NCBI RefSeq assembly: GCF_009730915.1 | Contig: NC_052480.1 | Coordinates: 2,418,001 to 2,482,000, forward strand | DNA from: Dioscorea cayenensis subsp. rotundata | Lineage: Eukaryota > Streptophyta > Magnoliopsida > Dioscoreales > Dioscoreaceae | Reading direction: 5' to 3' | Length of the DNA: 64,000 nucleotides | Shown: positions 2,836 through 58,684 of the stretch, piece after piece | How the letters are laid out: the number at the start of each line of letters is the position of its first letter | Position numbering within the stretch: the stretch's first letter is position 1 | Translations under genes and position numbers: made by a program | Notes under the pieces: model-generated | The model's input: the letters and a program-made list of their open reading frames with translations, nothing else | The model's database searches: none | Told to the model about the DNA's origin: nothing

Positions 2836-5800
2836 CTACATTATTGTGCAATTGCACTTGGATTCCAACTTTGGAGGTTTAGCACTGTCGAGCTTGTTCG
2901 CGACCGAGTCATGATTTGAAACAATGGTGTTTTGGATCTTTGTATTATCTTTGAATTCTGTGACCGTGGTGTTCGTTTCAGTTTCCAGCTTTTTCTGCTT
3001 GGTCTTTTGAGGTTTCGGTGTTCGTTTGTAGGATGATGTCCATGATGAGTCCTTTTGGGTTGGCGACAGTGTTTCTGTTAGAAGGAATCGTTGGCCGAAG
3101 AGGCTCTGTTACAAACTCCTCCCTTTCCATTACCTCTGTTGCAGCCTTGTAAGCTAAATCATGAATTATGGAGCTGCAGAAGAGGATGGTATCAGTTACT
3201 TCTTCGAGTGTTAGGCTTCTTGACATGTGTCCTCTGGGCCCTTCCACCGTGATCATTGATTTCTCTGTCGAAAAGAAGGCATTCCAAATGAATGAAAACA
3301 AAGATATTGCAAGTGTGGCTACAATTGCATTGTATGAATAAACTATACTCAGAATTAAAAAGCATCATTATGTCCAGTTTCACGTGTTCAACTAGAATCT
3401 TTGGTAGAGTAAGAGGAAACAAAAGTCACAATGCTTCCATGTGTTCATTTATTACATAAGAGTAGGTGATTAGGATCAAGGACCATACCATGTGAACTTC
3501 AGCAAAAAAGTCAGTCCAGGAATATATGAAAGAAAAGGCAAGGTAAATAAGTTGAGGGAATATCATAGTTACCATGATGTTGGTCAATGGAGTAAGACTC
3601 CATTGCGGATGCCGGTGAATCTGAATCCTTCTCTAACGATGCAGGACCAGAACATTCAGGAGATACATCCATGTTGTTTCGATCACTTGAGGCAGCGGAA
3701 TCACTCTGTAAATCTTGGACACCTTCAAGAGAAATTTGTAACTGTGGCATCGCCAAAGAAGGGCTTTCTGTTGGAACAGCGGACATCTCATTTCCACAAA
3801 CACTATTATTAAGCATGTCTTCTTCACCAATACAAGAGGAATCTGGTATACCATGTTCTACACCTGACTCTCGAGTGCTTCTGTTGTTTCCTAATTTTTC
3901 TGAAACGCCTGCTAATCCAGTCTCGACATCATGCAAAGAGTCCACTACTGTGAAACTATCAGTACAACCGAATAAATCTCCCTCAACAACCGCTTGTGTG
4001 GAAGGCATGGACTTTGTACTACTTGATCTCATGTTTTCTAGGGAGTTGTTATGCTCGTGATCAAATGTTTCTTTTTTCCCATAAGGTTCATAGTCCACAG
4101 CATCAACAAAACCATTTAATGTTTGCTCACTTGAGACTCCAGAGTTTAAAGGCTCAGTAATTTGAGCTTTTGCATTACCAGCATTTCTCATGTGCTCTAT
4201 TTCCGCTTTCCGGCTGCTTAACTGTCGTTGAAGGCGGAACTCTGATTGTCTAGATGATGCCAAGTCAACTGAAGAAGAAGGGGAAGCACTATCTCGACTA
4301 AAGCTGCGTCTCAGCACATTAGCATTGTCCCTTGTGTAAGAAGGCTCAGAACACATTATACTTGAAGCCAAGAATGCTCTTCCCTGGACAACAGGCCATT
4401 TACTGCTACTTGACCTTTGCAATAGTACTGATATACCTGTTCCCTCGGGAGTCGAAGCCCTTGGACTTGGATGAGTAACATCCCGTGGTTCTTGAAATTT
4501 ACTTTCAGATTGTACAGCTTTCTCCTCTTGATAGCTCTTTGGCTGCTGATCAGAATGGACTTTGGTTAGATCAACCTCCATGTTGCAAAAAGAGCTGCTT
4601 GGCACAAAATCAGGATCCCGGTCAACATTATTTTCATGCAAACCAGGCAATTCAGAAATTTCCATGGCAGGCAGCATCTCTTCTGACAATCTATCTATTC
4701 CAGCGTGCCTCACTGACTGAGAATATTCATTTTGAGCTACAAGAAAAGCAGTTTGAGATGCCGCTTCAGAAGAAGCCAAATCATCATCAACACATTCTTG
4801 ACAAACATCGGTAATTGATTCCATGTCCATAATACGGAATTGCTTTCCACATTTAGAGCAAGTCTTCAGCATTTCAAGACAATCAACCTTAGAAGGGATA
4901 CCGGCAAGATATGAAGCATCAGAAGCGGGTGCTATGCATCCAGGATCCCTGAAGTTGGCAGCAGATTTTTCTTCCTCCAGATCAACTTTGTTTGACACAC
5001 CTCCAACAGAATGTCCATTTTCACTTATCTCATCCATCTTGTCAAATATAAAGATTTCCTCTTGGGCGTCAAAATCCTGAGGCTTTTCCCATTCATTAAC
5101 TAAATGATTCTGGTCATGATCTTCGGCCTCAACAAAATCATGAGCAACAATGACACCTAGCTCAGAGCTTGCATTACTGCTAGTTGTGACAGAAGAATTC
5201 CTTGAGAACAATGGACGATGCACACTGTTTGCCTTCCCAGTATAAAATGTGGTTGTAGGAACACTTGATAAAAGTGGTCTGAACATATTCTGGGGAGTTT
5301 TATGATGATCCTAGAAAAAGACCAAAAATCAAGCAATGTAGAGATACATAGTAAGTAAAATGAGTGAATGTGTTACCAATAGTTTTAGATGAACTACGAC
5401 CATAACTGTTACAGGGGGTCAATATTTTAAAAAGCTCTCCAGAGAAATGTAAATACACAGGTTTTTCAAAAAACCAAAATGAATGATGAACTGAAGGGCA
5501 TTGAGGATATAAAGAAAAGATCAATCTTAGTAAATAAGGGTCATAAAGGAAACCAAAAAACAAATATTGTGATTAAGAAAATGTCAGTGTGATTCATATT
5601 ACAAGTTCCTTTGCCAAATATAATAGTAAGAAGTATAACTGCTATGCAACAGATGAGAGAGAATAGGTATGTTATTCTCTACTTCAAATCCCAGTGAGAA
5701 AGCTATTATGTGATCATCTAGTAGTTTTGCTAATTAAAAGAATTCAGTTCAATGTCATTAACATACTGAAATCTTCCAATATTTAAACATATGCATCCAT

Positions 5801-9734: not shown

Positions 9735-9980
9735 TCAGTGTGTTCGGCCTATTGCAAAAAACGCGATGTTAAACATTTAAGTATCATGAGTTCTAGCCCA
9801 CTAAATATATGTGGCGTTAAACATTTAAGTATCATGAGTTCTAGCCCACTAAATATATGTGGCGGTGATAGCTTTTTACCGTGAGTACGGTTTTATAGTC
9901 CCAAATTTTACATCACTGAGTGAAAATATTTGAGTTTGATGATCAATTTTTAGTCAGTAAATATGTTCGTAACTAATTGT
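9735..9980 (+). mobile_element. SINE-like repeat, diverged copy 1
   Basis: The right part (GATGATCAATTTTTAGTC near 9938) is shared with the copy at 14440-14640 (GATGATCAATTTTGAGTC), and the middle shares AAACATTTAA. It is interrupted by the 48-bp duplication. A tRNA-derived SINE origin is an inference; no clean poly-A tail or target duplication was identified. Confidence 0.3.
9768..9863. repeat. Perfect 48-bp tandem duplication
   Basis: Two identical 48-bp units, 9768-9815 and 9816-9863, lie head to tail without a single difference. They sit inside a SINE-like sequence. Perfect identity in otherwise diverged repeat DNA implies a recent duplication or an assembly artefact. Confidence 0.9.
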
Positions 9981-11600: not shown

Positions 11601-13058
11601 ATTTAAAAAAATAATCAAAATATTCTTTATTTGATAAGAATATAAGTATTGTATTTGATTTATTTTCATGCATTGCTTTAAGAATAAAGTTATGCATAGT
11701 TATCATGATAATTAATATATATATATATATATATAACTATGCGTCTTTTTCCGGCGTCTGCAAATCCAGCTCCCCTAAAATTTTAACTTGAATCCTCTGC
11801 ACGTCCACAAATGATATTTAGTATATATATTGCTAATATCATTCACCCTTTTTTAAAAAAAGGACTTCAAAAATAAACTCAGGAATCTTTGGAACTTGCA
11901 CATTAAGATATAGTTGAATCATTGATCTTAGCCCTATTTGTATTTAAACACAATTATTAATTTTTATCAGTGTTTTTTATCTTGATAATATATATATATA
12001 TATATTAAAACTAAAGAGCTTATTCCATCACTTTATGTTAGAATGTAGCAAGCAATCACTGTTACAAAGTCCAATCAACAAAATACTTTGTTGCATTAGA
12101 TGCTCAAGGAAAGGCAATGAAATAAAATGGTGATTAATAGTTAATTAAGACTTAATGATGAATTAGGACAGAATATTTTGGTTTGGATTAAACCATACTC
12201 TAACAATAGCCCCCACAAAAAAAAAAATAAATAAATAAATAAAGTGCACCAATCTCTCATTAGACTTATTAATGGCATATGTTAATCCAAGGCCAAATAA
12301 TTTGCTTTGCCAAACATCATGTATTTATTATATAAATCTTTGTCATTATCTACTCTAATCGACAACGATATGATTGAGACTATTAAACTTTGTTTATAAT
12401 CATGTCTTAACAATGAGATTAACATCACAACTATCACAATTTGAAGAAGACCTTTTCATTTCTTATTTTGATGGGACACTCATCTTTCTTCTTTGTTATT
12501 TAACAATATTGAATTTATAAAAACAAAAGAGGCAGGAGAGGACACAAAAATATTCAATAATAATAAAAAAAAATCATTATAGGCTTTTGGTGAGACGGTA
12601 CTAGACCTACAATATAAAGTTTGGTATACATAAATTTTTTTGATTTGATTTGAAATGCACTGAATACAATAATACTAAAAATATCATGTTATTAGAATGA
12701 GTTTGTAAATCATTCCCCATGTTAACAAGATGAAGACACGCAGACAAACTCTTTTTCTCCTATGTGCACCGCTTTGTTTGTAAATGCGCTTATTGCAAAA
12801 AAAGAAAAAAAAAACCATTAAAATGCTCTAAAAGCTTGGGCATGTTATCTGCAACAAAAAAAAACTTTAACAATTAATAATTTTGTTATATAATTTAAAA
12901 GCTCTTTAGATTGTGGAAGGTACCTAGTTCTAGATTGATTAAAGCTTTTATTATATGCAGAGGATAGGATGATTTATTACAGAGTAAAAATAAGTATGTG
13001 TTTGGATGCAAAATAATTTATTATACATATTATTTTTTTTAAAAGTAATTTATGTAAA

Positions 13059-14863
13059 TTTGATGCCTAACAAGCCAAAGTACTCAGTTGTTGGCATGAG
13101 CTTATTGCCCACAATGTAACTTATAAAGTCTGAGCAGCTTGTTAAGATCTTTCATACATTTTTATTTGAGATGCCGAAAATTCATGAAGGCAGTAAACTG
13201 TTGCCTTCACTTTTATGTCAATCTGTTGCAAGTGAGGAGCATAGGAAATCCATAAATTAACTACCTTCGGCCACTGATTTTCATCGCTGCATAAACACTC
13301 AAGGTAAGTATATCCTCGGCTTTAGATTCTCTGAAATAATCAGAGGATGGAAAACTGCAAAACATTTGTTTTTTATCTTGTCAAGATTGTTGCCAAGATT
13401 GATGAAACAACTCTATTTTTCTCGGGGCTGATATCGGTAATTGTTATCGGACAAGAAGATGAAGATCTTTCCTTGGCATCGAGGATTCGGGAAGTTCGAT
13501 CTCCATGACATCTACTAAAAGATCACCATGTTCTTTAAGTAAGGAGTCATGTTATGGACTAATTAAGTGCAAGCCTGAGCTCAAGTGCAGTAAGTCAAAA
13601 TTGCTGCATAAAATTTAATTCACTAAGAACATCACAGCACAAATGCAGCAATGGATTATTATTCAAAATAAGCAAATGCTGACAAGTTCTGTTCTTGATT
13701 TGCAGGGAAATATTTGTTGTGAAACTTTTAGTTGAATCATGTCATAACCAAAAAACATGTATCTGATAAATATTTGCAGTAATTAAGAAATTGAATGCTT
13801 CTATGAAGCTTTTAAATCCAGCTAGAATTTTTTTAACATAAACTTTAGTTTCAGTATGAGAAATGCATAATGCTGTCAATTTATAGCATCAGCATTTATC
13901 TTTATTAAATTACTTTGAAAAAAAAAGGTGATTCTTAATGAAAAGATGAAAGTAAAACAAGCAGGGACATAACAAATAGGACTAACATAAAGATTAACAA
14001 ACTCTAATCCTTTACTGAACATTAATTGTTATACAAATTTTCAGTACTAACAAACTCAAACAAACATGCAAAAGCCCTTCAGTAGTTACACAACAATGAA
14101 GCTTCCATACTGAAGTCATGAAGAAAATATGATAGAAAATTGCATTGCATTTGGAAATAACATAACAAATTAACAAAAATCAATCTTTACTGAAGATAAA
14201 AAGATACATACCCTTTCATTCCTACAGTAGACACAATACCAAAATAATATATAGGACTAAAACCTTTAAGAAACAATTACCCTCTCAGATTTAGATGTTT
14301 TACTGGATGTGGGTCTTGGCTCAGCTCATATCCAACATATATAACAAAATAAAACTTGTTAAACATGCTATACATTAAAAAAAATTCACTTAAAAAACAA
14401 GTGAAATGCATTTGTGACTTATCAAATGATTTCATAACTTAGCGGTATTAGTCCCATCACAAAAAGCAGGCGTGAAACATTTAACAGAATTCAAGTTTCG
14501 AGTCTTGTTAGACGCAATAATTGTAATAGGTCCCCGGTTGTAGATGTATATTTTCTACTTAATCCTTATATCGTTGTATGAGAAGAGCGGTTAGATGATC
14601 AATTTTGAGTCTGTGCATACGTACAACATGATATATAGAATTTGTCGCTTTCAGAGAAAAAAAAAAACAAAACTGGTGACTTCTCCACTTCACAAACTAA
14701 GCTCCCTTGCTAAATTGTGGTGCTGGTTAAAGCCCCATTGAATCATCTGACCAAAATTAATGGACCCAATTGGAACCCTAGAATCTAATCTCATCAACAC
14801 CTAAGCTATTTTCAAGATCAGTGAGCATCTATCATGCAACATTGTTATTTCAAGATCATTGCC
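13059..14863 (-). pseudogene. Inverted decayed duplicate of the mTERF5 locus
   Basis: Read on the minus strand, this stretch aligns collinearly with 57560-59690, which covers the end of the ankyrin gene, its 3'UTR, the mTERF5 leader, an intron, and the third of the way into the main coding exon. Matching pairs include 14690-14863 with 57560-57745, about 14000-14270 with 57995-58310, 13720-13945 with 58370-58560, 13381-13530 with 59049-59160, and 13059-13350 with the region around 59430-59690. Exact runs of 25-31 bases occur (for example 13509-13530 with 59056-59077). Because the intron and 5' flank are included, it is a DNA-level copy, not a retrocopy. Exon 2 of the parent and a block of the main exon are deleted, stop codons and frameshifts occur throughout, and a SINE-like sequence has landed at about 14440-14640. 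It cannot make an mTERF protein. Confidence 0.9.
14440..14640 (+). mobile_element. SINE-like insertion within the mTERF5 pseudogene
   Basis: This segment has no counterpart in the parental mTERF5 locus and interrupts the alignment. It shares a block (TAATAGGTCCCCGGTTGTAG, then GATGATCAATTTTGAGTC) with the stretch near 37280-37400 (TAATAGATCTTTGGTTGTAG). An early TTAGCGGTATTAG and a later AAGTTTCGAGTCTT resemble A and B boxes. The exact ends are unknown. Confidence 0.4.
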
Positions 14864-16060
14864 TTTTCTTTCGGTTATGGTTACCAGTATTTAATTTAAT
14901 TATAACATTGTTATGTTTTTTTTAATACCGAGTGAAACAGAAAAAAACATCCTAAACAATAAATTCAGTACCAACAGATAAAAATATTATTAATATGTTA
15001 GTTTTCTGTCATATATTATACTCTTTTTGGTATTTTAGGCTTATTTTATTTTAAGTATTTTAATTTTTTTCATTTGTCTATTTAAAAATTCTATGAAGTA
15101 TTAAATATTATTTCTCTAAATTTATTCCTATAATTTTAAAACTTTCAATAAATTATATTAAACTACATATTTGTTTAAATATATTTTTAATAAAAATAAA
15201 ATTTTAAAAATTAATATATTTTTAATACAAATAAATTTTAAAAAATTAATATAATTTTTATAAAATTTAAATTATCAATTAATTTTAACTAATTATTTTA
15301 ATTTATATAACAAATAATGAACAAATAGCCATTCTTAAGTTTGGTTATTTACAAAAGCTTAATGAGTTTGAGTTTTTCACAGAATGTCCATTTTTTTCGA
15401 CATCATATTTTTTTACGTCCTTTTTGTCGTAATGTTATGTAAACGCTTTATAATTTTTTTAAAGCTGAAACACATAACATTAAATGATTAAATATTAAAG
15501 CAGATGAAAGTCAAATATTAAATAAACACTTATATAATTATACGAAAACTCATTGAAGTATATATTGTAAAATAGAATAATATGATAGAAGCTATATAAC
15601 TAAAAAATAATAGGTCTAGAAAAAAAACTATCTGATAAATTTAAATATTAAATATATGTATGGAATATTTTGAAATTTTTAAAGACTTATAATTAATTTT
15701 TTTCCATTGCAGATCTTCCACTTATTTTGGTTAAAATGGATAAGTAAAAAAACCCGAAAGTAATTTTATTTTAATTTCTTTAACTTAAAAAAAAAATCAT
15801 CTGATAAGTACTACACTGTAGATCTTCCACGTATTTTGGTTGCACGAAAGTGGTGTACATCCTCCCAACCACCAAATCAAGCCAAAAAAAAAAAGTCAAA
15901 ACAATGGGCAGCTTCACGTAACCCAAGACGTAGATCCATAAAAGAGATCCAGCGATGTCGACACGCGGCGAGATCTCATCCGTCCAATCTTAAGCTTTAA
16001 TGACCGTTGGATACAAAGATCAGACGGTTAGGATGATCCGAACTAACTCGTTGGTTTGCG
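14864..16060. other. Intergenic upstream of the GTE gene
   Basis: It is AT-rich to about 15840, then becomes GC-richer with ACGT and CACG elements (for example TTCACGTAACC near 15912) as it approaches the GTE promoter. No gene is seen. Confidence 0.55.
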
Positions 16061-16078: not shown

Positions 16079-16954
16079 CGCGGCGAAAGAGTGAGCGATT
16101 CGTCGAATCGGTCGCGCTGGTTGCTGACTCACTCGCTGACGCGGATCGGGCGGAAGAGAACGAGGAGAAGAAGAGCTGCGGGGGGGATTAGGGTTTCGAA
16201 TTCTAGGGTTTTTAGGCGAAGGGGGAGGCTTCGTTTGAGATCGAGTGGATTCGGGTTTGGATTCCTGGACGCAATTTTCGGTAAATTTTGAGCTTTCTTG
16301 CGATTTCTTGGTTGTGATTTCTCTCATTCTCGCTGTTTAGGGTTTGCTCTGGGGGAATCGGAGATAGAGGGTGAGGTAGGGGTTGGTTTTCAAACAATTT
16401 GATTCTTTTGGGTGGTGGTTCGGCGTTGGGGGTGGTGGGATTGGAGGTGGATTAGGGTTAGGGTTTCGTGTTGGCTGTTGGATTACGGTTGAATTTTTTT
16501 TTGCGGTGTTTGGTGGATTGGGGGTCTCTTGGGCCATTGTTTGTCTCTGGACTAGACTTTTGCATCAGTGGAGGGAAAATTGTTCAGCAGCTAGGGCTTT
16601 GTTGGTGTGGTGTTAGTCTGGATCTACTTTGATTCTTTTTGCAATTTTGATCTGAATCGAGCGGCAGAGGCTGTTCAGTGGTCTTTAATTTTTAGCCTTT
16701 TGTGAAGTTCTGGCTTTTCTTATTCATTGAAAGTTATATTGAGATCTTGATACACGGAAATCACAAACTAATCATTTGTAAATTAGAAGGGGGCACAAAT
16801 TGTCTGGATTCTGAAAGAAGTGATCTTGGTGGGGAATTTGAATTCCAAGAGACAAGCTTCACAAAAAGGTGAAATTTGGAGTATTTACTAGTATTAGATG
16901 GTGTTGAAGTGATTATGGCATGCATTGCACGCTAAAGTTTCTTGAATTGGATCT

Positions 16955-19900
16955 ATGGCACAGACTGTTCTTGTGGAATATACTGAAGAGAAAGAGTTGA
17001 AGAGGAAATCAAGGGATCTTTCGTTTGTAATGATGGGTAAATCGCAGAAGTTTTCGAAAGGGTACAATTCTGGTTTTGTTCCGGATTACCGTCATACTGT
17101 GGAGACCATGGGGGATTCGGAGGGGTTTGATTACTTGGGTGGGGTGGACTGTGAGGAATTTTGCCCGCCAAAGAGGAAATGCATTAGTTTAAATGAGGAT
17201 AGACTCGATGTTTGCAGTGTTCCAACGGAAGTTATTTCTCTGTCCAAGCTGTCAGCTGCTGAGAGAAAGGAGTTGCAGATGAGATTTACAGAAGAGCTCC
17301 AGCAGGTCCAAGCAGTTCATAAGAGGATACTGTCTATGAGTGTGAAAGGTGGAAATGCAATTTCAGTTTCATCAATCAATCAAGGTCATAGCAATAAAAG
17401 GGATTCTGCTGCACAGAATGGTGCCAATTTAAAGCGTGGGGTTACAGGAAGGTTTGTATCAGCAAAGCGGGCTCCTGCTATTCCTCCTGTTAGCAGTTCT
17501 CATGCCATGTTGATGAAGCAGTGTGAGGTGATTCTTAAGCGTGTGATGTCTCACCAATATGGATGGGTGTTCAATACACCAGTTGATGTGGTTAAGTTGA
17601 ACATTCCAGATTACCACACAATTATTAAGCATCCAATGGATCTTGGCACAGTCAAGAGTAAAATTGCTTCCAGTGCCTATTCTAGCCCATGGGATTTTCT
17701 CGCAGATGTAAGACTTACCTTCACTAATGCAATGACATACAACCCTCCAGGCAATGATGTCCATGGAATGGCAGATACTCTGAGCAAGTTTTTTGAAGCG
17801 AGGTGGAAGTCTGTTGAGAAAAAGTTGGCCACAGCTGATATAAGGAACAAAAAACAAGAAGCAACCAAGCCAGTACAGCTGCAAAAGAATAGGAAAGCCT
17901 CGCCCATGAGGAATAAAACTTTTGATCCTGCAATTGCCAAGCCCAAGATGACAGATGAGGAGAAAATTAGTCTTGGCAGGCATGTGGAGTCATTGCTATC
18001 TGACATGCCTGTGCACATTGTCGAGTTTTTGAGAAGGCATTGTGATCCTTCAAATCAGTCAAGTGAGGATGGTGTTGAGATTGATTTTGCTACCCTCAGT
18101 GATGATACGTTGTTTGAGTTGAGGCAGCTTTTAGATGATGACTTGCAGAAGGAGCAAACTGGTCAGCCTGCGACAACCAAGGCTTGTGAGATGGAGGTAA
18201 CTCTTTTGATTAAGCTTATCGATCATCATTTTAACATTTTAATTCTGAAGATGATATCAATAGCTACTTTCTTTCTTCTTTCTGCAGATGTTGAATGAAT
18301 ATGGCACTAGCAACTCACCAATGAACCATCCTTCCAAAGGTTTTTTCTAACTCTTAATTCAGATACTTATCCTAGTTAAATGTCCTTTATTAATTCCCTT
18401 GTCTTGTTCCTGGTGCTAGCGCAGGCATGGAACCTGCTGATGAAGATGTAGACATTGGTGGTAATGATCCTCCTATTCCATGCTATCCTCCTCTTGAGAT
18501 TGAGAAAGATGCAGCACTCAAAAGCAGCAAATGCAGCAGTTCAAGCAGTTCCAGTAGTGATTCCGACTCTTCCAGCGGTGTGTGCTTCTTTATTGTCCTT
18601 TATTTTTTTTTATCTTTTATTTGTATGGTTCCTCAGAAATATGTCCTGGGACCATTTGTCTATCTAGCTGTATTTTGTAGTTCATTGCTTCCTTCTGTAA
18701 TGTGGATCAGATTTAAATCTTTTACATGCTTTGTCTACTTTGTGGCCTCAATGTTATTGAACCTTTTTTGATATCATTGTTTTGCTTGTGGATTATTTTC
18801 TCGAAATTAGTTTCTATTGAAGTTTAGGTTATTTTTCATTCTTTGACTCTCTCTAAGATTTTTTATAATACATGTTGATATAATGCTAGGATATGTGCCA
18901 CTGGTGGTATGTCCTCCAACAGTTATCTCGGTTAGTGTACTTGACCTAGGACTGGTTTTTTTTGGATTGTGACAGAACCTGATTTTACACAATACCCTTA
19001 ACAACTTAATCATCCATTGTCAATTTTATAAAACTCTTCATTGATAAACTCTCTTTTTTTCTCACCATCTATTGCCTATTTTGGACGGATGCTTAATTTT
19101 AATCGTTATAAAGGCTTATTTGAATGCTAGAAAGAAGGGATAAATTGTGCTGCATAGGAAGAGATATCTATTAAAATAGTTTGATAGTGAAATTTGTCTT
19201 GAACTAAATGGGCCAATCCTGTGGAATGAATGACTTCTGATTTCTTGTATGTTTTGATGTTTTTTGATCATTCTTCACCCTGTAGATTTTGGAGTTGGCT
19301 TGCCATATAACCTAATTGGGATTGATGTTCTGCATGTGATCTCTGTTTAGTGTTGCTGTTCAGAGCTGGACTTATGCTCTTAAGTTGGATACTGCATTTT
19401 ATACACTTTGGTGACTTGCTTAATTTATTTTTCTGGTTTGTTAAATAGTGTGGTATTGGTTTTCGATGTGAGAGACGTGTTGTTTCTGCTCCTATTCATG
19501 ATATCACGATGATAAGTTTTTGAGTTGTATAAATGTACTCTTTTAATAGCTGATGTCACTACCTTCAGGTAAGTTTGAGCCACAATTCCATGAGAAAGTA
19601 AAAAGTTGTCCTCTGGATGTATGAGCCGGATTTTTTTTAAAACCGTATAGGCCAGGTTGAGGAAGTAGATCCATATACATTGATCTGCTTCTAGTGTCCA
19701 CAAAAAGTGTTCTCAGCTGGTTTGCAGGCATTGCCAATTGATTATTTAAGTCACTCTCTTCTGTAATCTTGCATTATTTTAGGTTAAAGGGTCTGCCATA
19801 TTATTCATCTGTCTTACCCTACTATGTTTAACTGGTGTACTGGCTTTTTCAATGAGGTGATTTAGTTACCATCTTTGTTTTACATCTTTCATTCTTTTTA

Positions 19901-23042: not shown

Positions 23043-24042
23043 NNNNNNNNNNNNNNNNNNNNNNNNNNNNNNNNNNNNNNNNNNNNNNNNNNNNNNNNNN
23101 NNNNNNNNNNNNNNNNNNNNNNNNNNNNNNNNNNNNNNNNNNNNNNNNNNNNNNNNNNNNNNNNNNNNNNNNNNNNNNNNNNNNNNNNNNNNNNNNNNNN
23201 NNNNNNNNNNNNNNNNNNNNNNNNNNNNNNNNNNNNNNNNNNNNNNNNNNNNNNNNNNNNNNNNNNNNNNNNNNNNNNNNNNNNNNNNNNNNNNNNNNNN
23301 NNNNNNNNNNNNNNNNNNNNNNNNNNNNNNNNNNNNNNNNNNNNNNNNNNNNNNNNNNNNNNNNNNNNNNNNNNNNNNNNNNNNNNNNNNNNNNNNNNNN
23401 NNNNNNNNNNNNNNNNNNNNNNNNNNNNNNNNNNNNNNNNNNNNNNNNNNNNNNNNNNNNNNNNNNNNNNNNNNNNNNNNNNNNNNNNNNNNNNNNNNNN
23501 NNNNNNNNNNNNNNNNNNNNNNNNNNNNNNNNNNNNNNNNNNNNNNNNNNNNNNNNNNNNNNNNNNNNNNNNNNNNNNNNNNNNNNNNNNNNNNNNNNNN
23601 NNNNNNNNNNNNNNNNNNNNNNNNNNNNNNNNNNNNNNNNNNNNNNNNNNNNNNNNNNNNNNNNNNNNNNNNNNNNNNNNNNNNNNNNNNNNNNNNNNNN
23701 NNNNNNNNNNNNNNNNNNNNNNNNNNNNNNNNNNNNNNNNNNNNNNNNNNNNNNNNNNNNNNNNNNNNNNNNNNNNNNNNNNNNNNNNNNNNNNNNNNNN
23801 NNNNNNNNNNNNNNNNNNNNNNNNNNNNNNNNNNNNNNNNNNNNNNNNNNNNNNNNNNNNNNNNNNNNNNNNNNNNNNNNNNNNNNNNNNNNNNNNNNNN
23901 NNNNNNNNNNNNNNNNNNNNNNNNNNNNNNNNNNNNNNNNNNNNNNNNNNNNNNNNNNNNNNNNNNNNNNNNNNNNNNNNNNNNNNNNNNNNNNNNNNNN
24001 NNNNNNNNNNNNNNNNNNNNNNNNNNNNNNNNNNNNNNNNNN
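23043..24042. other. Assembly gap of exactly 1000 N
   Basis: A run of exactly 1000 N is a conventional placeholder, so the true length is unknown. It removes the promoter and N-terminal exons of the cycloeucalenol cycloisomerase gene. The long open frames crossing it are artefacts of unknown bases. Confidence 0.98.
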
Positions 24043-24286
24043 AATTGATCATGTAAGACGGGCATGTTGAGAAGGTGTGGATGTGTATGCTTTTGAAAGA
24101 TAAGAGTTGGAGATGCCATCTTGATGTGGTACTTGTACCTTGGTGTGACCAGTTTAAATAATAGAAATTATATAGATGCCAGAGAATGTTTTTTTAATTG
24201 CATATATAATAAATTGTGGATCTGGTAGTCCTTTATCTGCTATTGCTGAAACTAAGACTGTCTTTATTCAAACCATTTTGTTACAG

Positions 24287-25686
24287 GTGCCACATACAAC
24301 ATTTCTTCTCACCCATACTTGCTTTCTGTTTTACCATGTCATATCAAATATGACACTTCGCCGGCTGCGACATTCAATTGCTGACTTACCACATTCAATA
24401 CGTATGGTTACTGAAGCTGCTTGGGTTTTGGCCCTCTCTTACTTCATAGCATACTTGGAAACTATAGCAATTTCGAACGTAAGTGGTTATTAAGTCAACA
24501 CATTTAATTTATGATTATTTTATCTCATCTTGATGTCAAGTTCCACTGTGCAGTGTTGAATTTGCACTTGTGATTTAAAAATAATTGCAGTCATCATTTT
24601 TGTGTGTGTGTGTGTGTGTGTGAATTACCTTCATTTACTATGTCATGTATTCTAAACTTTTAGTATGTGCTGGCATGCACACTTTGTGTACACCATGCCT
24701 ATTCAAGGCTTACTCAGATACTTGTCCTTTATAATGCAAATACTGCTTCAATGAAAAGTAAGCAGTTAACATACCTGTTTTGATGTTTGAGTTTGGAATG
24801 ATAGTGCACTGCAGGTGACTATCTCAGCTGTTTTAGTGGAAGAATTTTCTTCATGCAATCCTATTTTATCCAAATTTTATTTATTTATTATCACTGCATT
24901 ATCACGTTCTTGCAAACAAATACCTATTAGCTGAAGTTTGTCACTGATGTAACTCTTTTTTCTCTATGCACATGTGATAGTGTTTTTTCTCTGAACATCC
25001 TTTTAGTAGGTTTCTGGAAAATCATCCATTTAGATTTTAACCATGTGGTAGTCATGACTCCCTTGTGCTTCAATTAACAAGCATTATAGTTGAATTATGT
25101 GTAATCTGTTATATAGATATCCTAATCCAGTGATTGTGGTCTTCTTATCACTTGCTCTTATCAGTGAGCAATAGCTCAAGATTAACTAACAGTGGATTTT
25201 CTTCTTGCAGTTTCCTTATTATGATTTTGTTGATCGGGCATCAATGTACAAAGTCGGATGTCTCTTCTATGCAATATACTTCATTGTGAGCTTTCCCATG
25301 TTTTTAAGGTAAGAAACTGATCAAATTATAACCCTCGTAGAAAACCCCAATCTTTGTTTGTTCATTACATTATATCAAATTAATATCCTATTGAACTTTT
25401 GCTTGTGTGTATATCATCGAAGTAACAAAACATTTTATCTATAAAGTCACAAGTTTTGTTCTAATACCCACTCATATGTTGTTCAATTACTAGGATTGAT
25501 GAGAAAGTAGGTGCACCATGGGACTTTGGGAGAGTGGCTGTTGATGCCTTAGGTGCTGCCATGCTTGTCACCATCATCCTCGATTTATGGCGTATATTTC
25601 TCGGACCCATTATTCCTGTCCAAGAATCAAAACAGTGTGCACAACCAGGGCTTGCATGGTTTCACTTGCCGGAGAGCTCAATGTAG
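24287..25686 (+). CDS. CPI1: Cycloeucalenol cycloisomerase, C-terminal part (5' exons lost in gap)
   Basis: The enzyme opens the 9beta,19-cyclopropane ring of cycloeucalenol to give obtusifoliol in plant sterol synthesis; it is an ER membrane protein. Three exons are readable: 24287-24478, 25211-25308 and 25494-25686 (stop TAG 25684-25686), with AG/GT boundaries in phase. They encode VPHTTFLLTHTCFLFYHV, SNMTLRRLRHSIADLPHS, YDFVDRASMYKVGCLFYAIY and RVAVDALGAAMLVTIILDLW, which are family signatures, with several hydrophobic membrane spans. About 160 residues are present of roughly 280 expected. Everything upstream of VPHTTF, including the start codon, is missing and is presumed to lie in the 1000-N gap or beyond. 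Frames in the visible exons are intact. A 3'UTR intron (donor GTGAGT after 25702) is likely. Confidence 0.9.
24600..24622 (+). repeat. (TG)n microsatellite in CPI1 intron
   Basis: About eleven TG units within the intron after the first visible exon. Confidence 0.9.
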
Positions 25687-37100: not shown

Positions 37101-38087
37101 GTTAATTGTTCTAGGTAGATATGGGCCTTTTTTTTAAAAAAAAAAATATTTAGTTAAATCCAAAATTTGATAAGATAAAACATTTATACCAAAGTTACTA
37201 AAAAGCTTGTAACTCACCCGTATTAGCCCCCCGTTATGAAAAGCAAAAAATATTAATAAGTTTTGAATTCAAAATCTCACTCAACATAGTAGTGATAATA
37301 GATCTTTGGTTGTAGATATAAATTTGCTATTCAAATCTTGTTACACTGAAAATAAAATATATAAGTTAAATGATCCATTCCTGATTCATGCACACATCCC
37401 TGATATATATAATATTTATTGTTTTTATATAAAAAAAAAAACTCAATTCAAAGATAATCGACACCCACTGTCTTATATCTGAATTTAATATTAAGTGAAA
37501 ATTCTCACTTAAAATAAAAATGACACTTTCTAATTAAAATTTTTGTTACTAATAACACTTACAAATATTAAAAAAATTTGCATTTTTCATTTTTTAAAAT
37601 TTTAAATAATTATTTGTCATTTATTTCATCAACATAATCATGCATGCAATCTGAACCGGTCAAACTTATTAAATCATGAGTCACCAACATTTGTCTAAAG
37701 TCTGACATAGTATTAAAAACACTTGATGTCATTAGATTTTTTTAGGTGTCTAACATTTTTTCCTAGTTTCTACATGTTTTAGCTCTCTTTACCAAAAAAA
37801 AAAATAAATAAAAATTAAAAAAACAAAAAAACAAAAAAAGGACACATGCTCTCAATGAGAAACAAGGAAAGCACATGCCCAATATAAACTTCAATTATCT
37901 TGTTGAATGAAAGCAGCCTGTAAACTAATGTAAATCAAAATTAACAGCACATTGAGGAAAGAAAGAGTGTACCCAAGTTTTCTTTTCAAATTCTTAGTTT
38001 GAAGAAGATTGCTAACTTGCAAGATTTATGAATCAATATGAAACAAGACCATTAAAAACAGAATGGCAACAAAAGGCTAACAATAAC
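34116..38087. other. Intergenic, AT-rich, no gene recognised
   Basis: Nearly 4 kb without recognisable coding sequence. It contains A/T homopolymers, TA runs, and a SINE-like stretch at about 37190-37410 related to 14440-14640. The 87-aa open frame at 36581 is hydrophobic and AT-driven, with no homologue that I recognise. Confidence 0.6.
37190..37410 (+). mobile_element. SINE-like repeat, related to 14440-14640
   Basis: It shares with 14440-14640 the ordered blocks GAATTCAA, TAATAG.TC..GGTTGTAGAT, and a closing TGATCCATT/CATGCACA-type segment. Divergence is high and ends are undefined, so membership in one family is probable but the class is an inference. Confidence 0.35.
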
Positions 38088-41399: not shown

Positions 41400-44245
41400 T
41401 AATGCTGTTGTATTTTTTTCATTTTTTTATATATATATATATAATTTTTTTATTAGGATTTAAGTGCAATATCATCTAATGTTGTGTGAATTTTGGTTTT
41501 TTATATTTGGAGTACGAGGTGATAGGGGGCTGAGGACCACTTTCCTTGGGTGGGTGTGATTATTGTTAAAACTCTTGTGTGGAATATCTGATTTTGTAGG
41601 AAATTATTGTATATTTAATGTGAATGTCTCACCTGTGTATGCTATTATTGTGAAGATTAATAGTATTATTATGTCTTGGTTTTTTGCAACTATAGAGGGT
41701 ACAAATGAGATTTTAGCTGATGTTTATTCCACTACTTGGTTTAACATGGAGTTCATTGGACCTCGCGCGAAATCAGCTAGTGCCGCTCTCACAATTGAGG
41801 AGAACCTCATGATGGGTGCATAGGCTAGATCTTTTGTTTTTTGATAGGTCCCGTGAGGAGCCTCATTGCTTTCTCATCATGCTGGTGACTCATTGCTTTT
41901 TTGGGCTACTGCTTTTATTTGCCCTACGCTAGTGAAATGTTGCTTTTTAAGACGTGGATAAACCACACTGTATTAAAGACATATAACGATATAAAGAAAC
42001 GACACTTTTAAGTCTATATGTTTTAAATGATATTCAAATAGAGATTTTTTTCCACTGATAAAAAAAAAAAAATTGATCTTTCAATCTCACTTGTATATTT
42101 TAAACTCATGTATTATAGATTATGTAATATATAATAACACTCATTTTAATTTATATAACTTAAATGATATTCATATAGGGATTTTTTTTCCCAATAAGAA
42201 ATAATTAATTTTTTAATTCTCTCATTTGTACATTTTAAACTTGTGTATCATAGCTCATGTCTTACGGAAAGACACTTATTTTAGTTTATATATCTTAAAT
42301 GATACTCGGATAGAAATTTTTTTCCCCAATAAAAAAAAAAATTTGATCTCTCAATCTCTCACTTGTATATTTTAACCTTGTGTATTATAGCTCATGTTTT
42401 ATGGAATAACACTCATTTTAATTTATATAGCTTAACCGGTACTTAAATAGATTTTTTTCTCTTATAAAAAAAAATCAATCTCTTGCTTATCAGTAAGAAA
42501 AAATTATCTTCTTTCTTCTAATGCAGAGCTGGTTGGTGAACATGAATGTCTCGCTACATTTGCTTTGTAGAATTTATATAATGATAGACTGAATAATGAA
42601 TATGTTTAACCAACATGACAACACATCAGGCGGTACATGTTGTACATATGAATTTTTTTTCCCTATAATTACCGTGGCATAAATTATCTCATCCGTAGTC
42701 AAGTATTAATAAAATTTTAAAACTTTTTTATCTAACAAAATTACTTGTTAATCCCGGTAAGTTTATATTCTACTCAAACAATCTTTAAAAACTTAATTAC
42801 AATGAGATTTGGCGTCTTGGTTTCACTGTGATTGTCATGGTACCGAGTATATAGGATCACAACTTATTTTTTTAGGATCACAACTTATTTTTTTAATTGA
42901 ACTATATTTTAATCCTCACCATTGTAGAGCCAGTGAAATTTTTTAAAATTTCAGAAATATCATTGAGAGGGGAGAATTCCTGCATCCTTGACCTTCTTTC
43001 TGCCATTATTGGTTTGCCCCTCTTCATAACAGCTACATTCCACAACTACAATATACTTCTTTCACCCATGCAATTAATTAACACCCAAATTCACCCAATT
43101 AACAAGAAAAATATCTTGATTCACACCCAAATCATTCTGCTTTCCCTTGAGAATTCTTCAAAATTAGAGGTATCAATTAGAAATAACATTGTTTAGGGAG
43201 GAGTTAAAGCTGATTTGCTGAAGTACTTTGATAAGTCATTTTAAATAAAGTTTGAAATTCAAAATTACAGCCAAGTGCATTGTGGTCTTTTTCTTCATAA
43301 GAAATAACATTGTTTAGTGATGAGTTAAACTGAAGAGCAAGGTTTTTAAAAAGTAAGAATAGATTAGGAATACTGAAAATTAGGGGCATCAATTAGAAAT
43401 TCTGTAACTGTCGAGGGTCTTTAGTTGTTTTTTTTTTCTTTGTATATTTATAAAATTTTAAATTAAAAAAATTTGTTCCCCTGTAAAGCATTCATGTTTG
43501 ACATCATGTTCTGTCGAAAGAAGATGGTTCAAATTTCACTTCACATAAAGTAAAAATATAAAATGTGTTGAGATAGTAATTACATACTTATGTATATTCA
43601 TGACAAATAATTTGTCTATAATTTATTAAAAAAATAAAATGAAAGTTTACGAGCTACACCACACCAACAGCAAATTAAAAAAAATATTTTTGAGATGAGT
43701 GATATGTTACATGTTATATACACCAACTATGAATTCAGTCAAACATGTTCACAGTTAAGTAATTTTTAAAATTCCACTTTAGTCAAAACAAAAAGGAGAA
43801 GCAATTTTTAGAGAACAAAATATAAATAAATGAATATATATGATGGGTGGGCACCATATGAGTAATATATATATATATATATCAAAATGAATTTTATATG
43901 CACCAAATGCACATTTTTATAGTAAAATGAAGTAATGAACCAAAGTTTTTTATTTGACTACATTTAAAACTAAGATATATATATATATATATATATGGAA
44001 AAACATCATAGGTAAGTACCTGGATTTCAAATATAAGGATGTTTTAAATCTAAGCCGTTGGATCATCATTTGATGGTTGATTGTTTACATAAACACTGTA
44101 CACTTTTTACTGTTTATGATTGTATATAATTATAACCCTTATTTTCGCATCTACAGCCAAACCCTCCCTCTGCGGCTCTTTCCAATAAATAGATTAAAAA
44201 GTTCACAAATAATAGAAACGGGTGTGTATATATCAGTCAGTGGAG
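41400..44245. other. Intergenic between T-protein and PPO2
   Basis: No gene is recognised. It includes an 86-aa open frame at 41563-41823 in more balanced sequence (41690-41900) that could be a transposon or gene remnant, the 135-bp tandem repeat at 42002-42490, a partial repeat at 43158-43400, and long TA runs at 43865 and 43975. Confidence 0.55.
42002..42490. repeat. Tandem repeat, about 135-bp unit, 3.5 copies
   Basis: Units begin at ACACTTTTAAG (42002), ACACTCATTTTAA (42137), ACACTTATTTTAG (42272) and ACACTCATTTTAA (42409), so the period is 135-137. Each contains TTAAATGATA-type sequence, a TTTTTTTCCC block, a poly-A run, TTGATCTCTCAATCTC and TTGTATATTTTAA. Units are roughly 75-85 percent alike by eye. 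It encodes nothing. Confidence 0.85.
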
Positions 44246-52925: not shown

Positions 52926-55900
52926 ATGGCAGTATCCTCGATGAAGAAGCTCAACGTGAACGGCGGAGGAGGCGGTGGATCGGTGAAGCAGGTGGACTCT
53001 GAGACAGAGGCGTCACAGAGGCTGGTGGAGGCGGTGCACAGTGGAGATGCTCGAGCAGTGGCGGAGTTATTGGCTGATCCGATGGTCGACGTGAACTACG
53101 CCGGCGCCGTCTGGCTCCGGCTCCGGAGACCAGAGGTGGTGCTCCGTGAGGAGGTCTCCGATGAGGTCCGGATCGAGTACGAGGAGCTTCGCACCGATGC
53201 TTCCCCTCTCTTCCTCGCCTCTCACTCCGGCAGTCTCGCTCTAGTTCGGAAGCTCCTGGTATGATGATCTTGCTACTCGATTCTAGCTCCGATCCTGGGT
53301 TTCCCTCCATGTTTCCATGGTTTTTTAGGGTTTGAATTTGAATCCGTGATCTCGATGGCGGTTTTCCATTTCCCCACAAAACTCATTCGTTTTGTTTCAA
53401 ATTACTTCCGTTTTTGAAAAAAAAAGTTTAAAATTATTTTTCTAATATGAAATTCAATTTATAGCTGAATTATTATTATTTTCTATTAATTGTTTCCATG
53501 ATTTTTAGGTATTTGGTTTGAATCAGAGATCCAGATGGCGTTTTCCCATTTTTTTTTTTCCAATTGTGGTTTATTCATTTTTTTTAAATTTATTATTATA
53601 TTAACACTGAATTCAATTTCTAGCCTAAATTATTTGTCCTAATAGTCTCAAAATTTTTCATTTTTGCACTCGCTGTGGCACTATAACTAAAATGCGGCAG
53701 CGGGATACCAGACCGCAATGCTGTCATTCACTTGCATGCATAAAATTACATACGGTAAATGGTTTTGGGCTCGTGGATCCCCGCGCTTTTGGTTGGTATG
53801 ATTTGTGGGCCGTGTAGCGTGGATAGGCTTGGCCCATTGCCAGGACTTTGGAAGCGTTGGCACACGCAAGCGCCGCCTGCGGTGCTGGTTTTAGTCAATT
53901 GTGATCTTTGTGAGATCAACTTCATTAATGGTTTGGTACTTTGTGCATAGGGTGTTGTCTAGCCAGCTCAATTAAAATCTCTATGATGTTGTTTGATGGA
54001 AAATTGAAGAATGATTAAGTTTTTTTTTTTTAAACTTAGATTAAAAGTCAAAATTTTATAAAATTTTTCTTTTTGTGCATGGGGTCATGTCTAGCCAGCT
54101 CAATCAAAATCTCTATGATGGTGTTTGATGGAAAATTGAAGAATGATTAAATTTTTTTTTAATCTTAGATTAAAAGTCAAATCTTTATAAAATTTTTCTT
54201 TTTGTGCATAGCGTCATGTCTAGCCAGCTCAATTAAAATCTCTATGATGGTGTTTGATGGAAAATTGAAGAATGATTAAGTTTTTTTAATCGTAGATTAG
54301 AAAGTCAAATCATGTATTGATCTGATCTCATTGCTGAGATGGAATTTATAATTTTTATGTTGATCCTGCTTTTCTGTGGTACCCAGGCTTGGTGTTGAGT
54401 TACTCATATTTAATATCAATTTGGCTTTATTTTTTTCATAAATTTTATATTTTATGAAAATAATTAAATTTGTTCTTCTTTAAAGCAATAATTTGGCGTT
54501 TCTTATAAAAAACGAGTAAGAAACACAATGTAGAACAGTAGAAGACATCTCAGAAAATAAATTAAGTATTAATTTGGTTTTTTTTAATTAATGAGTTCAT
54601 TATTTATTTATTTTTAATGCAAAAGCTAGAAAAAATTTCACCAAGTGGTAATTTTTTTATAAAATCAAATCTAAGTTAAGGATCTGCTTGTTCTACTCTT
54701 GTATAGTGAATTTTATAAGTTTCAAAATGCAGTTTATTAAAACTGTAATTTTTGAAATTTTGTTTACGTGATATGAAATGAGAGTGGAGAGATCTTTCAT
54801 TGTTATGTTTTGATGATCCAAAGTCCCCAAATACAAATTCTTGTGAAAGCACTCTTCTTCCGTGTTTATGTACTTTCCCCACTCAATATTTACTAACCAG
54901 AAGTTTTGGGAATTTTATGTAATCACTAGAAGCTCCGGAACTGACTGAGATTGATGGCTGATCTAATGTAAAAAAATCCAGTTTCTTGCTGATAAAATTT
55001 AATAAAATATGCCAGAAAATCATTTATGATTGTTACGTTTCTTAGATTGGAAAAATTGTTAGCTTTGTACTATAGAAACCCGGAATTGTTGTGATTGGTG
55101 TTGAGACATGTTTTGATGAAACAGAGTGTAGGAGCAGATGTGAACCAGAAACTGTTCAGAGGGCACGCAACGACGGCGGCAGCGAGGGAAGGGCGGAGAG
55201 ACGTCCTGGAACTACTAGTGAAGGCGGGCGCATCGCAACGCGCATGCGAGGAAGCTCTTCTTGAAGCCTGCGCTCATGGGCATGCAAAGCTTACCAGGTT
55301 ACTCATGGACTCTGATCAGATTCGGCCCCAGGTCGCCGTTCATGCGCTGCTCACTGCTTCGTCTCGTGGCTTCGCCGATGTTGTGCAAACCCTCATAAAG
55401 GTATTCTTATTACGTTTCTGTCCTTACAATTAGTCCCACATCGACTAATGAGACGAGTTTGAGTCTGGATATAACTTAGAGTGGGAACCAGCTAGTCGTG
55501 TTCGTTGAAAGGAGAGACGGTTGGCATCTCCCCTGACAGGGACGGGAACGCTTTCGAGCTTACCTGTTACCACACATGGTTAAGGCTACCCGCTTCGGCG
55601 GATCTTACCCAATTTTTTTTTTAATTTTTGAGTTAATAGAATTTTGGTGTCAAAAACATATATTTTTAAAAATTTGCATCTTTTTCAGAGTCATGTAGAA
55701 TAATACATAGATGTACTATTCAATTATTGTTTCTAACCTCTCACACTCTGAAGCTAGCAACTTTTTCTGATTTTACCCTTTCTTGGTGCTTACCAATTTG
55801 TGTTGACTTCATTACATAAATTCACAGTGCGGAGTAGATGCAAATGCAGCAGGCCGTGTGCTACTTCGATCTCTAAAGCCAACCTTACACGCTAACACAG

Positions 55901-57582
55901 ACTGCACTCCGCTATTCGCTGCCATTGTTGGTAGACAGGAGAGCGTTGTCCGGCTTCTCTTGCAGGCAAGCACTAATTCACTTGATTCATTTAATATCTA
56001 TCTATTAATCTTTGTATCTATCAACTCTGATTTGTTTCTATTCCAGGCGGGAGTTAGAACGGACGTGAAGGTTAGTCTTGGTGCATGGTCTTGGGACACG
56101 ACCACCGGTGAGGAGTTCCGAGTGGGAGCAGGGCTCTCAGAGCCCTACAATGCAGCCTGGTGCGCAGTTGAGTACTTTGAATCCACAGGCTCTATTCTTC
56201 GCATGCTTCTTCAGCATTACTCTCCCAATGCATTGCACTGTGGACGTAGTCTTCTCCATTATGCAATCCTTTGCTCCAACCATCGCGCCATTGACACGCT
56301 CTTGGCTTGTGGAGCTGATTGTGAGCTCCGTGTTAAGACCTCAGGGAAGAATGAATTCCGACCACTTCACATGGCTGCCTGGCTTGGCAATCTCAAGATA
56401 TTGCAGAGTTTGATTGATGCTAAGTGTGATCTTAATGCTAGGATGGATAGTGGAGAGACAGCGTTGATGCTCTGCGCACGTTTCAAGCATGAAGAGTGTT
56501 TTCGGGTTCTTGTATCTGCTGGTGCTGATCTCGGCATGGTCACTTCAACTGGTGTAACTGCATCCCTCATTGCAGCTTCAAACAAGTGGAGTTTTACTTA
56601 CCAGCAAACGCTGCTTAACTTGATCCATTCTGGAAGAATTCCTGGATCAAGCAATACCAACATCTTCTCTCCGCTAATGTTTGTTGCTCACCATGGTGAT
56701 GTTTCGGCTTTGGATGTTTTACTGAAGCATCCAGGTATTGATCTTGATGAGCAAGATGAGAATGGATACTCTGCCATCATGATCACAGCTCAAGAAGGCC
56801 ATATTGATGCTTTCCGCTCCTTAGCATTTGCTGGTGCTAATGTGAAGCTGCGCAACAAAGCAGGGGAGACAGCCATCAGTATCTTTCAGTCTAGCAAGAA
56901 CAGAGATCTTTTTGAGCAGGTGATGCTTGAGTCTGCGTTGGAGAAAGGTAATGCCGAAGAGTTCTATGCGTTGCATTGTGCAGCTCGGCAGGGAAACATG
57001 GCTGCAATGCGTCTCTTAATGAATTTAGGACTTGATGTTAATGGCATCAATGGTGATGGATACACTCCACTGATGCTAGCAGCCAGGGAAGGGCACAGTA
57101 CCATTTGTGAACTATTGCTGGCATGTGGAGCAGAGTATGACATCAGGACGCCGGAAGGAGAGACAGCACTCTCACTAGCACGGGTGAACAAAGTGTTTGA
57201 CAACAAAGCAGAGGATGTGATAATGGACGTAATGGCAATGGACTTGGTTTTGCAAGGAAGTAGAGTGAAGAAGCACACTAAATTTGGAAAGGGAAGGCCT
57301 CATAAGAAGATGCTGAAGATGGTGATGGACTTGGGCGTGCTGAGATGGGGAAAAGCCAGGCGTAGGAATGTGGCATGCAGGGAGGCAGAGATTGGTGGCA
57401 GCTTGTCCTTCTTGAAAAATAGGAAGAGAAAGGGTGATGGTTATGAACCGGGACTTTTCAGGATAGTGACAATGAAGGGCAGGGAAGTGCATTTTGTTTG
57501 TGACGGTGGAGATGAGATGGCCGAGCTTTGGGTGAGAGGGATAAAGCTTATCATTAGTAAGAGTGGCAGACAATGGCGATGA
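52926..57582 (+). CDS. Plant ankyrin-repeat protein (ankyrin-3-like)
   Basis: A scaffold of ankyrin repeats, presumed to mediate protein-protein contacts; partner and location are not evident. Exons: 52926-53258, 55125-55400, 55828-55965 and 56047-57582, all in phase, 760 aa. Start at 52926 (MAVSSMKKL) was preferred; an in-frame ATG at 52836 adds 30 residues. Repeats run nearly end to end (GADVNQKLFRGHATTAAAREG, FRPLHMAAWLGNLKILQSLID, DGYTPLMLAAREGHSTICELL), with family blocks AWSWDTTTGEEFRVGAGL and EYFESTGSILRMLLQH, and a conserved basic tail (KHTKFGKGRPHKKM, VLRWGKARRRNVACREAE, EVHFVCDGGDEMAELWVRGIKL). The intron 55966-56046 is GC-AG, 81 nt and stop-free, so retention would add 27 residues in frame. 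Intron 1 (1.9 kb) carries a three-copy tandem repeat. No frame lesion. Confidence 0.9.
53941..54320 (+). repeat. Three-copy tandem repeat, about 130-bp unit, in ankyrin intron 1
   Basis: Units begin TTGTGCAT at 53941, 54073 and 54202 (spacings 132 and 129). Each holds CTAGCCAGCTCAA, AAAATCTCTATGATG, TTTGATGGAAAATTGAAGAA, a T run of varying length, and TTAGATTA..AAAGTCAAA. Identity is about 95 percent, so the expansion is recent. Confidence 0.95.
55431..55612. repeat. Unclassified GC-richer repeat in ankyrin intron 2
   Basis: An isolated GC-rich island in AT-rich intron DNA begins with the hairpin ATTAGTC-CCACATC-GACTAAT (55431-55451) and ends near GATCTTACCCA before a T run. The TAGTCCCACATCG motif is common near ends of short noncoding LTR elements in plants, so a TRIM-like or SINE-like remnant is possible. 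No second copy is in the window. Confidence 0.35.
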
Positions 57583-58684
57583 ATGTTGTATAATAGATAC
57601 TCATCGACCTTGAAGTAGCTTAGGTGTTAAAAGAGATAAGATTCTTAGGTGCTAAATGGGCCCACTAATATTGGCCAGATGATTCAGTGAGGCTTTAAGA
57701 GCCTCACAAAGCACCAGCACCACAAGTTAGCAAGGGAGCTTCTTAGAGACCATGGGGTGCTCTGGAGGCCTCTTACTGTCCCAGGATCAAGGCCTTTTCT
57801 CTCCGGCATCGGAATTTCTCGAGGCTCTTCTTTGTGTCCAGGTTCCTTACAAAACTCCACATTCTCCTATGCATTCTTGGCTGAAAATTGGTTCTTTGGT
57901 TGGTCTTGCGGTCTGTTTCTTAGTTTGTGAAGTTAGTGGAGAAGTCTCCGAAAATTTCACTTGTTTTTGAAGTGAATTTTTAACTGTATAGCATATTTGA
58001 CAGGTTTTATTTTGTTATTTTTTTAATTTTTTTGTATTGTGACTACTGTATGAATGAAAGGATAGTTGTTTGAGTTTGCTAGTGAAGATGATTTTGTTAA
58101 TTTGTTCTGTTCTTTTCAAATGGAATGCAATGCAATTTCTTTTTTTTTTTCCATGAATTCAGTGTGGAGGCTTCATTGCAATAAGAAGCTGCTACTTTGT
58201 TCCCTAGCTAAATCAATCTGTAATTTCGGAAGGGCTTTTGCATGTTTGTTTGAGTTTGCTAGTCAAAATTTATATAACAACTAATGTTTTGTTGAGGATT
58301 AGAGTTTGTTCATCTTTATATTAGGCCTATTTGTCATGTCCTGCTGGCTTTCCTTTATTCTTTTCATTGAGAAGCACCTTTTTTCCAAAATAATTGGATA
58401 AAGATAAATGTTGCTGCTGTAATTGACAGCATTATGCATTTCTCATACTGAAACTGAAGTTTATGTTAAAAAATTCTAGCTTGATTTGGAAGTTTCATAG
58501 ATGTATTCAATCTCTTACTGCAAATATATCAGATGCATATTTTTTTATTATGACAGGGTTCAACTAAAAGTTTCACAACAAATACTTATCTGCAAAGCAA
58601 AATCTTGTGAGTATTTGCTTATTTTGAAATACACTACTTCATTTGTGTTGTGATATTCTTAGTGAATTCAATTTTATGCTGTAG
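57583..58684 (+). other. Ankyrin 3'UTR, mTERF5 leader and first intron region
   Basis: The ankyrin stop (57580-57582) is followed within about 170 bases by a candidate mTERF5 start at 57752. From that ATG the open frame is not transit-peptide-like and its donor phase does not fit exon 2. Removing one G from the GGGG at 57754-57757 gives an Arg-rich N-terminus (MGALEASYCPRIKAFSLRHR), and a third frame gives the right phase at the CAG/GTTCC donor but lacks an ATG. The first exon therefore cannot be fixed. The rest to 58684 is intron. Confidence 0.4.

Follow-up and report, generated by a model that had tools for sequence, protein, structure and literature searches.

A dead, unprocessed duplicate of an mTERF5-like gene block in Dioscorea cayenensis subsp. 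rotundata, on a contig that is probably misplaced or mis-oriented

In the genome of Dioscorea cayenensis subsp. rotundata, a short stretch of DNA resembles, on the opposite strand, the region of an mTERF5-like gene that lies further along the same window (the whole stretch of 64,000 nucleotides analysed, which is part of contig C10). This raises the question of what the stretch is, by which route it was copied, and whether both copies really lie inverted and 45 kb apart, as the assembly has them. The DNA concerned is the following (positions are those of the window unless a contig is named):

13060 to 14843, minus strand: decayed unprocessed copy of the ankyrin-3'UTR/mTERF5 block, aligned in ordered blastn pieces with parent positions 57582-59678
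57582 to 60069, plus strand: parent, an mTERF5-like gene with the intergenic DNA before it; mTERF domain in ORF 58951-60069
55807 to 57579, plus strand: ankyrin-repeat exon (PF12796, E = 4e-45), with a paralog at C5:2100374 and above

The collinear reverse-strand match on which the original prediction was built is real. In a blastn self-comparison of the window, eight opposite-strand pieces, all collinear, connect 13059-14863 with 57582-59678 at E-values from 3e-124 to 2e-7, the strongest one covering 485 bp at 83.7% identity (E about 1e-122). Read on the minus strand, 14843-13060 pairs in order with parent positions 57582-59678, and over seven anchored blocks 188 of 1331 aligned bases differ, corresponding to 86% identity with gaps left out. 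Scored against the remainder of the window, the copy body (13060-14407) reaches 533 bits, compared to 43.8 bits for the best of 200 dinucleotide-preserving shuffles. Exact runs of at least 18 bases measure 35, 30, 28, 26 and 26 bp; several long runs are thus present as announced, with the longest slightly exceeding the 25-31 bases claimed for them. Additionally, both copies have 45 21-mers in common, 14 of which fall into the coding exon and 31 outside coding exons 2 and 3. By the usual definition, a segmental duplication has a minimum length of 1 kb and a minimum identity of 90%, so that this label, given to the pair originally, does not suit 86% identity over 1331 aligned bases.

ORF 58951-60069 of the parent is open and carries the PF02536 mTERF repeat domain (E = 5.3e-67), and solved mTERF structures are found among its relatives; its subtype is presumably 5 (mTERF5/MDA1). 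For Arabidopsis, mTERF5/MDA1 is described as acting in transcriptional pausing and transcript stabilisation in chloroplasts (PMC7909791). A literature search on mTERF5 together with ankyrin or cyclase, and on mTERF duplication or pseudogenes, gave nothing evidently dealing with this locus. Just upstream of the ankyrin exon, a gene for the minor-spliceosomal RNA U6atac was observed at 55498-55619 on the plus strand (RF00619, 85.3 bits), with a T run at its end and, before it, a TCCCACATCG element; at an E limit of 0.01, a blastn comparison with other genome loci, including the paralogous pieces on C5, gave no match for it.

The retained parts of the copy can be assigned as follows:

14699 to 14843, minus strand: copy of the ankyrin 3'UTR and the mTERF5 leader/intergenic DNA (parent 57582-57741)
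13606 to 14090, minus strand: intron 1, the longest well-preserved piece (parent 58219-58679; 88% identical without gaps)
13060 to 13595, minus strand: what is left of the mTERF coding exon 3 (parent 58995-59678); two large stretches are deleted, ten small insertions are present and the frame is broken

The outer bound at about 14843 corresponds to parent position 57582, the final base of the ankyrin stop codon, so that only the 3'UTR of the ankyrin gene is included, and the inner bound at about 13060 corresponds to 59678 within mTERF exon 3. Because leader, intron 1 and part of a coding exon were copied, we are dealing with an unprocessed duplicate; the block copied measured about 2.1 kb, starting at the ankyrin stop codon and ending midway through exon 3 of mTERF5. 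The presence of intron 1 and of intergenic/leader DNA likewise identifies DNA, and not spliced RNA, as the template, which supports the original view of a non-retroposed, DNA-level duplication followed by deletions. Compared to the present parent, the copy lacks the first exon together with the ATG start codon, and neither exon 2 nor intron 2 is present; from exon 3, two segments of 55 and 116 bp are missing. In what is left of exon 3, stop codons occur inside the tblastn matches, and the frame is broken by the ten small insertions. With a functional-looking homologue, a retained intron and flank and lost coding capacity, the copy has all attributes of a duplicated (unprocessed) pseudogene; considering its lost exons, the frame-breaking insertions and two interrupting inserts, it is dead.

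Within the aligned exon 3 blocks (13060-13595), all ten of ten small indels are insertions, four of them 4 bp long and located beside similar 4-mers; for a pseudogene, a deletion bias is expected. When the deletion joins were read by eye, CTT was found to be common to both parent ends at the exon 1 deletion, and TGC is possibly common at the exon 2/intron 2 deletion; these motifs of only 3 bp have a length often given by chance and are too short to be weighed. Deletions at microhomologies and small templated insertions are listed as signs of error-prone end joining in a review (PMC7407515).

Divergence between copy and parent is not uniform. K2P distances amount to 0.127 for intron 1, 0.187 for the leader and 0.192 for exon 3, and exon 3 is significantly more diverged than intron 1 (p = 0.014). 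An intron less diverged than its exon is the opposite of what a simple model of a dead copy would give and counts against such a model. Part of the gap may be compositional, since, when counted by the parent base, differences are more frequent at G and C than at A and T in either class (the excess being less clear when counted by the copy base) and since the exon is richer in G+C than the intron. Differences at codon positions 1, 2 and 3 number 30/170, 21/172 and 35/171 (0.176, 0.122 and 0.205), and the third position does not stand out from the rest (p = 0.13), giving no clear sign of coding constraint. One could also suppose that intron 1 was kept by selection or gene conversion, for instance as a regulatory element or a source of small RNA acting on mTERF5, which would make the copy a regulatory satellite of its parent; to this idea we give hardly any credence. 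A search of Rfam with 57560-58720 at an E limit of 1 detected no known RNA in intron 1, the one match (atoC, E = 0.53) remaining below its gathering score. Plant substitution rates lie at 5-7e-9 per site per year, at which the intron K2P would translate into roughly 9-13 million years, a value that is only indicative.

The copied block is interrupted by two stretches that are missing from the parent:

14412 to 14690, plus strand: SINE-like insert with an A-rich end
14249 to 14340, minus strand: insert, about 92 bp long, with a relative at C6:3798913-3798995

To either side of the former, reading by eye on the minus strand shows a 9-bp direct repeat that is imperfect (AAGTCACCA/AAGTCACAA) and in place of which the parent has a single similar stretch. 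A relative of this insert is found at 37206-37443 (E = 8e-6 in a single-sequence search), another one at 9795-9970 (E = 0.065 in the same kind of search and 5e-4 when a profile of two sequences was used) and a further one at C9:3416702; the designation SINE-like is suggested by the letters. The smaller insert matches its C6 relative at 73%, with the similarity stopping at the insert ends; its start appears LTR-like to us, and no relative beyond chance was detected within the window (63 of 200 shuffles scored as good). Since the copied block is interrupted and the parent is free of both inserts, they most simply post-date the duplication.

How widely the block has been copied was addressed by genome DNA searches, in which the best candidates were scored and match counts are hence lower bounds. 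With the copy as query, at least eight matches were obtained, namely itself, five pieces of the parent and two weak matches to the inserts; with the parent as query, there were at least seven, comprising itself, five pieces of the copy and the end of one ankyrin paralog on C5. Among the scored genome matches, there was no third copy of the mTERF5 block. Self-tblastx likewise gave no other paralogous genes flanking both copies, its matches being the pieces of the pair, local repeats and weak scattered hits.

The sharp outer edge at a stop codon, together with the lack of an own poly(A) tail and of transposon ends in the DNA inspected, leads us to infer an origin in break repair. A broken chromosome would have been patched by copying a distant template, through either synthesis-dependent strand annealing or template switching, and the patch would then have decayed neutrally by deletions, inserts and frame-breaking insertions. 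At the outer edge, a 14-nt near-repeat is present (14810-14823 and 14848-14861), and an equally close repeat starts at 93 of 62741 window positions. Template copying during break repair is described for grass genomes, as is the capture of gene fragments by transposons (PMC3445842, PMC4563886). According to the latter, likewise documented route of copying plant gene fragments, an element of the Pack-MULE, Helitron or CACTA type would have captured and carried the fragment. The repeats inside the copy would agree with such a carrier, although they interrupt the copied block and are most simply later arrivals. Similarly, the flanks at 15000-15330 and 12850-13059 match the window better than 199 and 191 of 200 shuffles, respectively, and both match A+T-rich DNA at 51.5-52.5 kb, but the nearest 5' flank (14864-15100) shows nothing of the kind (158 of 200 shuffles as good), and among the 25 of 47 inverted-repeat pairs listed, none abuts both ends. 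Capture by a transposon is considered unlikely; the A+T-rich sequence on both sides of the copy (the 3' flank and 15000-15330) may contain repeat DNA, which would fit the involvement of a repeat and counts somewhat against our preferred origin.

Retroposition was a further candidate, as an unspliced transcript or RNA reading through from the ankyrin gene could carry its 3'UTR, the mTERF5 leader and intron 1. At the mid-exon end at 13060, no own poly(A) tract is visible by eye, although the DNA beyond is A+T-rich and a tract could have decayed there. This route was rejected chiefly as intron 1 is copied, where a processed retrocopy has its introns removed, and even in its unspliced form we regard it as exceedingly improbable.

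The copy itself is thus real, and it is its position that turns out to be doubtful. The elements needed to judge it are these:

23043 to 24042, no strand: assembly gap, exactly 1000 N long, that separates both copies (C10:2441043-2442042)
24284 to 25662, plus strand: cycloeucalenol-cycloisomerase-like gene, 3' half; the corresponding 5' half is located at C10:1928970-1927772 on the minus strand
3514 to 5310, minus strand: 599-aa ORF with no Pfam match, a marker on the copy's contig; paralog at C5:1512132-1513970 (plus strand, 46% identical)
16946 to 18295, plus strand: BET-bromodomain exon, a marker on the copy's contig; paralog at C5:1494634-1495944 (minus strand, 64% identical)

In assembled order, the genes between both copies are the BET gene, the cyclase 3' half, an adenylate-kinase-like ORF (which we presume to be such, the PDB match having an E-value of only 0.45), an LRR/kinase gene, a GCV_T gene, a gene region at about 44-55 kb (no Pfam match in the four ORFs tested) and the ankyrin gene. 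From ORF and domain evidence, the count of seven bracketed genes given originally is therefore roughly right for the assembly as it stands. Two local direct repeats, at 53940-54311 and 41959-42474, consist of pieces that are 92% and 76% identical. Outside the window, a 6.7-kb inverted pair (C10:2513485-2520101 and C10:2534944-2541609) with 90.7% identity was observed as the top-scoring repeat pair in the 284 kb around the window.

The second gene in this row is incomplete. It is presumably a cycloeucalenol cycloisomerase gene; percent identities to the query protein are approximate. Its first 108 residues have no match within the 284 kb around the window. In a whole-genome search, residues 105-262 were found on the plus strand directly right of the window gap, and residues 1-42, 28-60 and 72-106 about 514 kb further left on the minus strand (C10:1928970-1927772). 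That 5' half reads toward a second gap of 1000 N (C10:1925872-1926871), which begins about 0.9 kb past the last matched exon. The break lies within one intron, with the last exon on the left ending at GT and the first exon on the right following an AG. Flipping the block of about 514 kb between both gaps makes the cyclase gene whole; a gene split at two gaps and restored by a flip is what an error of assembly orientation produces, and the block is probably mis-oriented. Since the block contains at least one further gap, flipping it entirely is the simplest repair of the map and not the only one. By coordinate arithmetic, the flip would turn the copy onto the plus strand at about C10:1935051-1936854, oriented like the parent and at a distance of 0.54 Mb from it. 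The copy's contig has thus probably been placed or oriented wrongly, as judged chiefly from one split gene, and in the real chromosome, copy and mTERF5 would probably be directly repeated, some 0.54 Mb apart. The description "inverted, 45 kb from its parent" accordingly holds for the assembly as released but is doubtful for the chromosome, as a 1000-N gap separates the copies and the join is contradicted by the split cyclase.

Alternatively, the assembly may be right, with a true inversion of about 514 kb having broken the cyclase gene, so that the copy really lies inverted some 45 kb from mTERF5. An inversion would leave the cyclase halves in opposite orientation, just as they are found, and, if heterozygous, might likewise cause an assembly to break at the inversion ends. 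Moreover, the last exon of the 5' half contains one extra base compared to the query protein, so this half could be decaying, and C6 harbours a second partial cyclase locus (residues 70-255). On the other hand, both supposed breakpoints coincide with gaps of 1000 N, and the two cyclase halves are otherwise well conserved, at 69-86% identity to the query protein.

The paralogous segment on C5 bears on the same choice. Here, 16 kb separate the paralogs of the two contig markers (BET exon and 599-aa ORF), whose order and orientation relative to each other agree with those on C10. The ankyrin paralog (C5:2100374 and above, minus strand) lies next to paralogs of pieces from the upstream region, 0.59-0.60 Mb from the other two. 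On C10, BET exon and ankyrin exon are 0.54 Mb apart when the block is flipped, compared to 38 kb as assembled. Order and distance of all three markers fit C5 after the flip, but the strand of the ankyrin exon disagrees; the assembled map matches a reversed C5 in the strands of all three, as a true inversion would have it, but puts the ankyrin exon too near to the other markers and on the wrong side of them. Because either map needs one more rearrangement, C5 would support the flip by distance and order only and appears as mixed evidence. A genome search with the GCV_T ORF matched only the ORF itself and therefore yielded no fourth marker on C5. Taken together, we consider a true inversion a rather unlikely but respectable alternative to a mis-oriented block.

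The C5 segment was also inspected for an mTERF5 outgroup, and the 7 kb below the ankyrin paralog are without a window match at E 1e-4. In C5:2092001-2102119, no mTERF5 is detectable beside the ankyrin paralog, though the upstream region is conserved. By sequence, mTERF5 would have been either lost beside the C5 ankyrin paralog or acquired later on C10.

The geometry also bears on ideas about function. A local inverted duplication that left both copies close together might allow them, as originally proposed, to recombine or to yield antisense or hairpin transcripts directed at mTERF5. In the assembly, the copies do lie inverted at a distance of 45 kb, and their five exact runs of 26-35 bp and 45 common 21-mers (14 of them from the coding exon) would suit this scheme, but the scaffold join is contradicted, overall identity is only 86%, and 31 of the 45 21-mers lie outside coding exons 2 and 3. 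For recombination between the copies, we judge a longest identical stretch of 35 bp at 86% overall to be too little. A hairpin, in turn, would require one transcript across the whole interval, and only 45 21-mers (14 in the coding exon) are common to both copies. As both ideas rest on a contradicted geometry and on a longest identical stretch of 35 bp, they are unsupported, and the proposal as a whole is very improbable. No present function of the copy seems to be indicated by the DNA. A caution follows, in that the geometry attributed to a real similarity (inverted, 45 kb) depends on a join that gene structure contradicts, and hypotheses of antisense RNA or inversion built on the assembled geometry could mislead. 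At the same time, the split cyclase gene offers a precise and testable place to check the chromosome map.

Overall, we favour, with a probability of about 70%, the joint reading of a dispersed break-repair duplicate that decayed neutrally, has no present function and sits on a misplaced or mis-oriented contig. As such, the duplicate is an ordinary instance of the routine copying and decay of gene fragments in plants. It resembles the unprocessed pseudogene fragments and break-repair filler of plant genomes in being a partial gene with intron and flank, disabled and away from its parent, as well as in its sharp edge and the small near-repeat at that edge; it differs in that parent and copy are on one chromosome and in that the repair origin is deduced. 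With inverted-repeat small-RNA loci that silence a paralog, it has the inverted arrangement (as assembled) and some exact runs of 26-35 bp in common, and it differs in its low identity, far-apart arms and probably wrong orientation. The closest parallel for the contig itself are scaffold orientation errors in chromosome-scale assemblies, with which it shares complementary halves of a conserved gene on opposite strands, each at a 1000-N gap; the difference is that here the probable error is read from gene structure, with a real inversion as a less likely account of the same picture.
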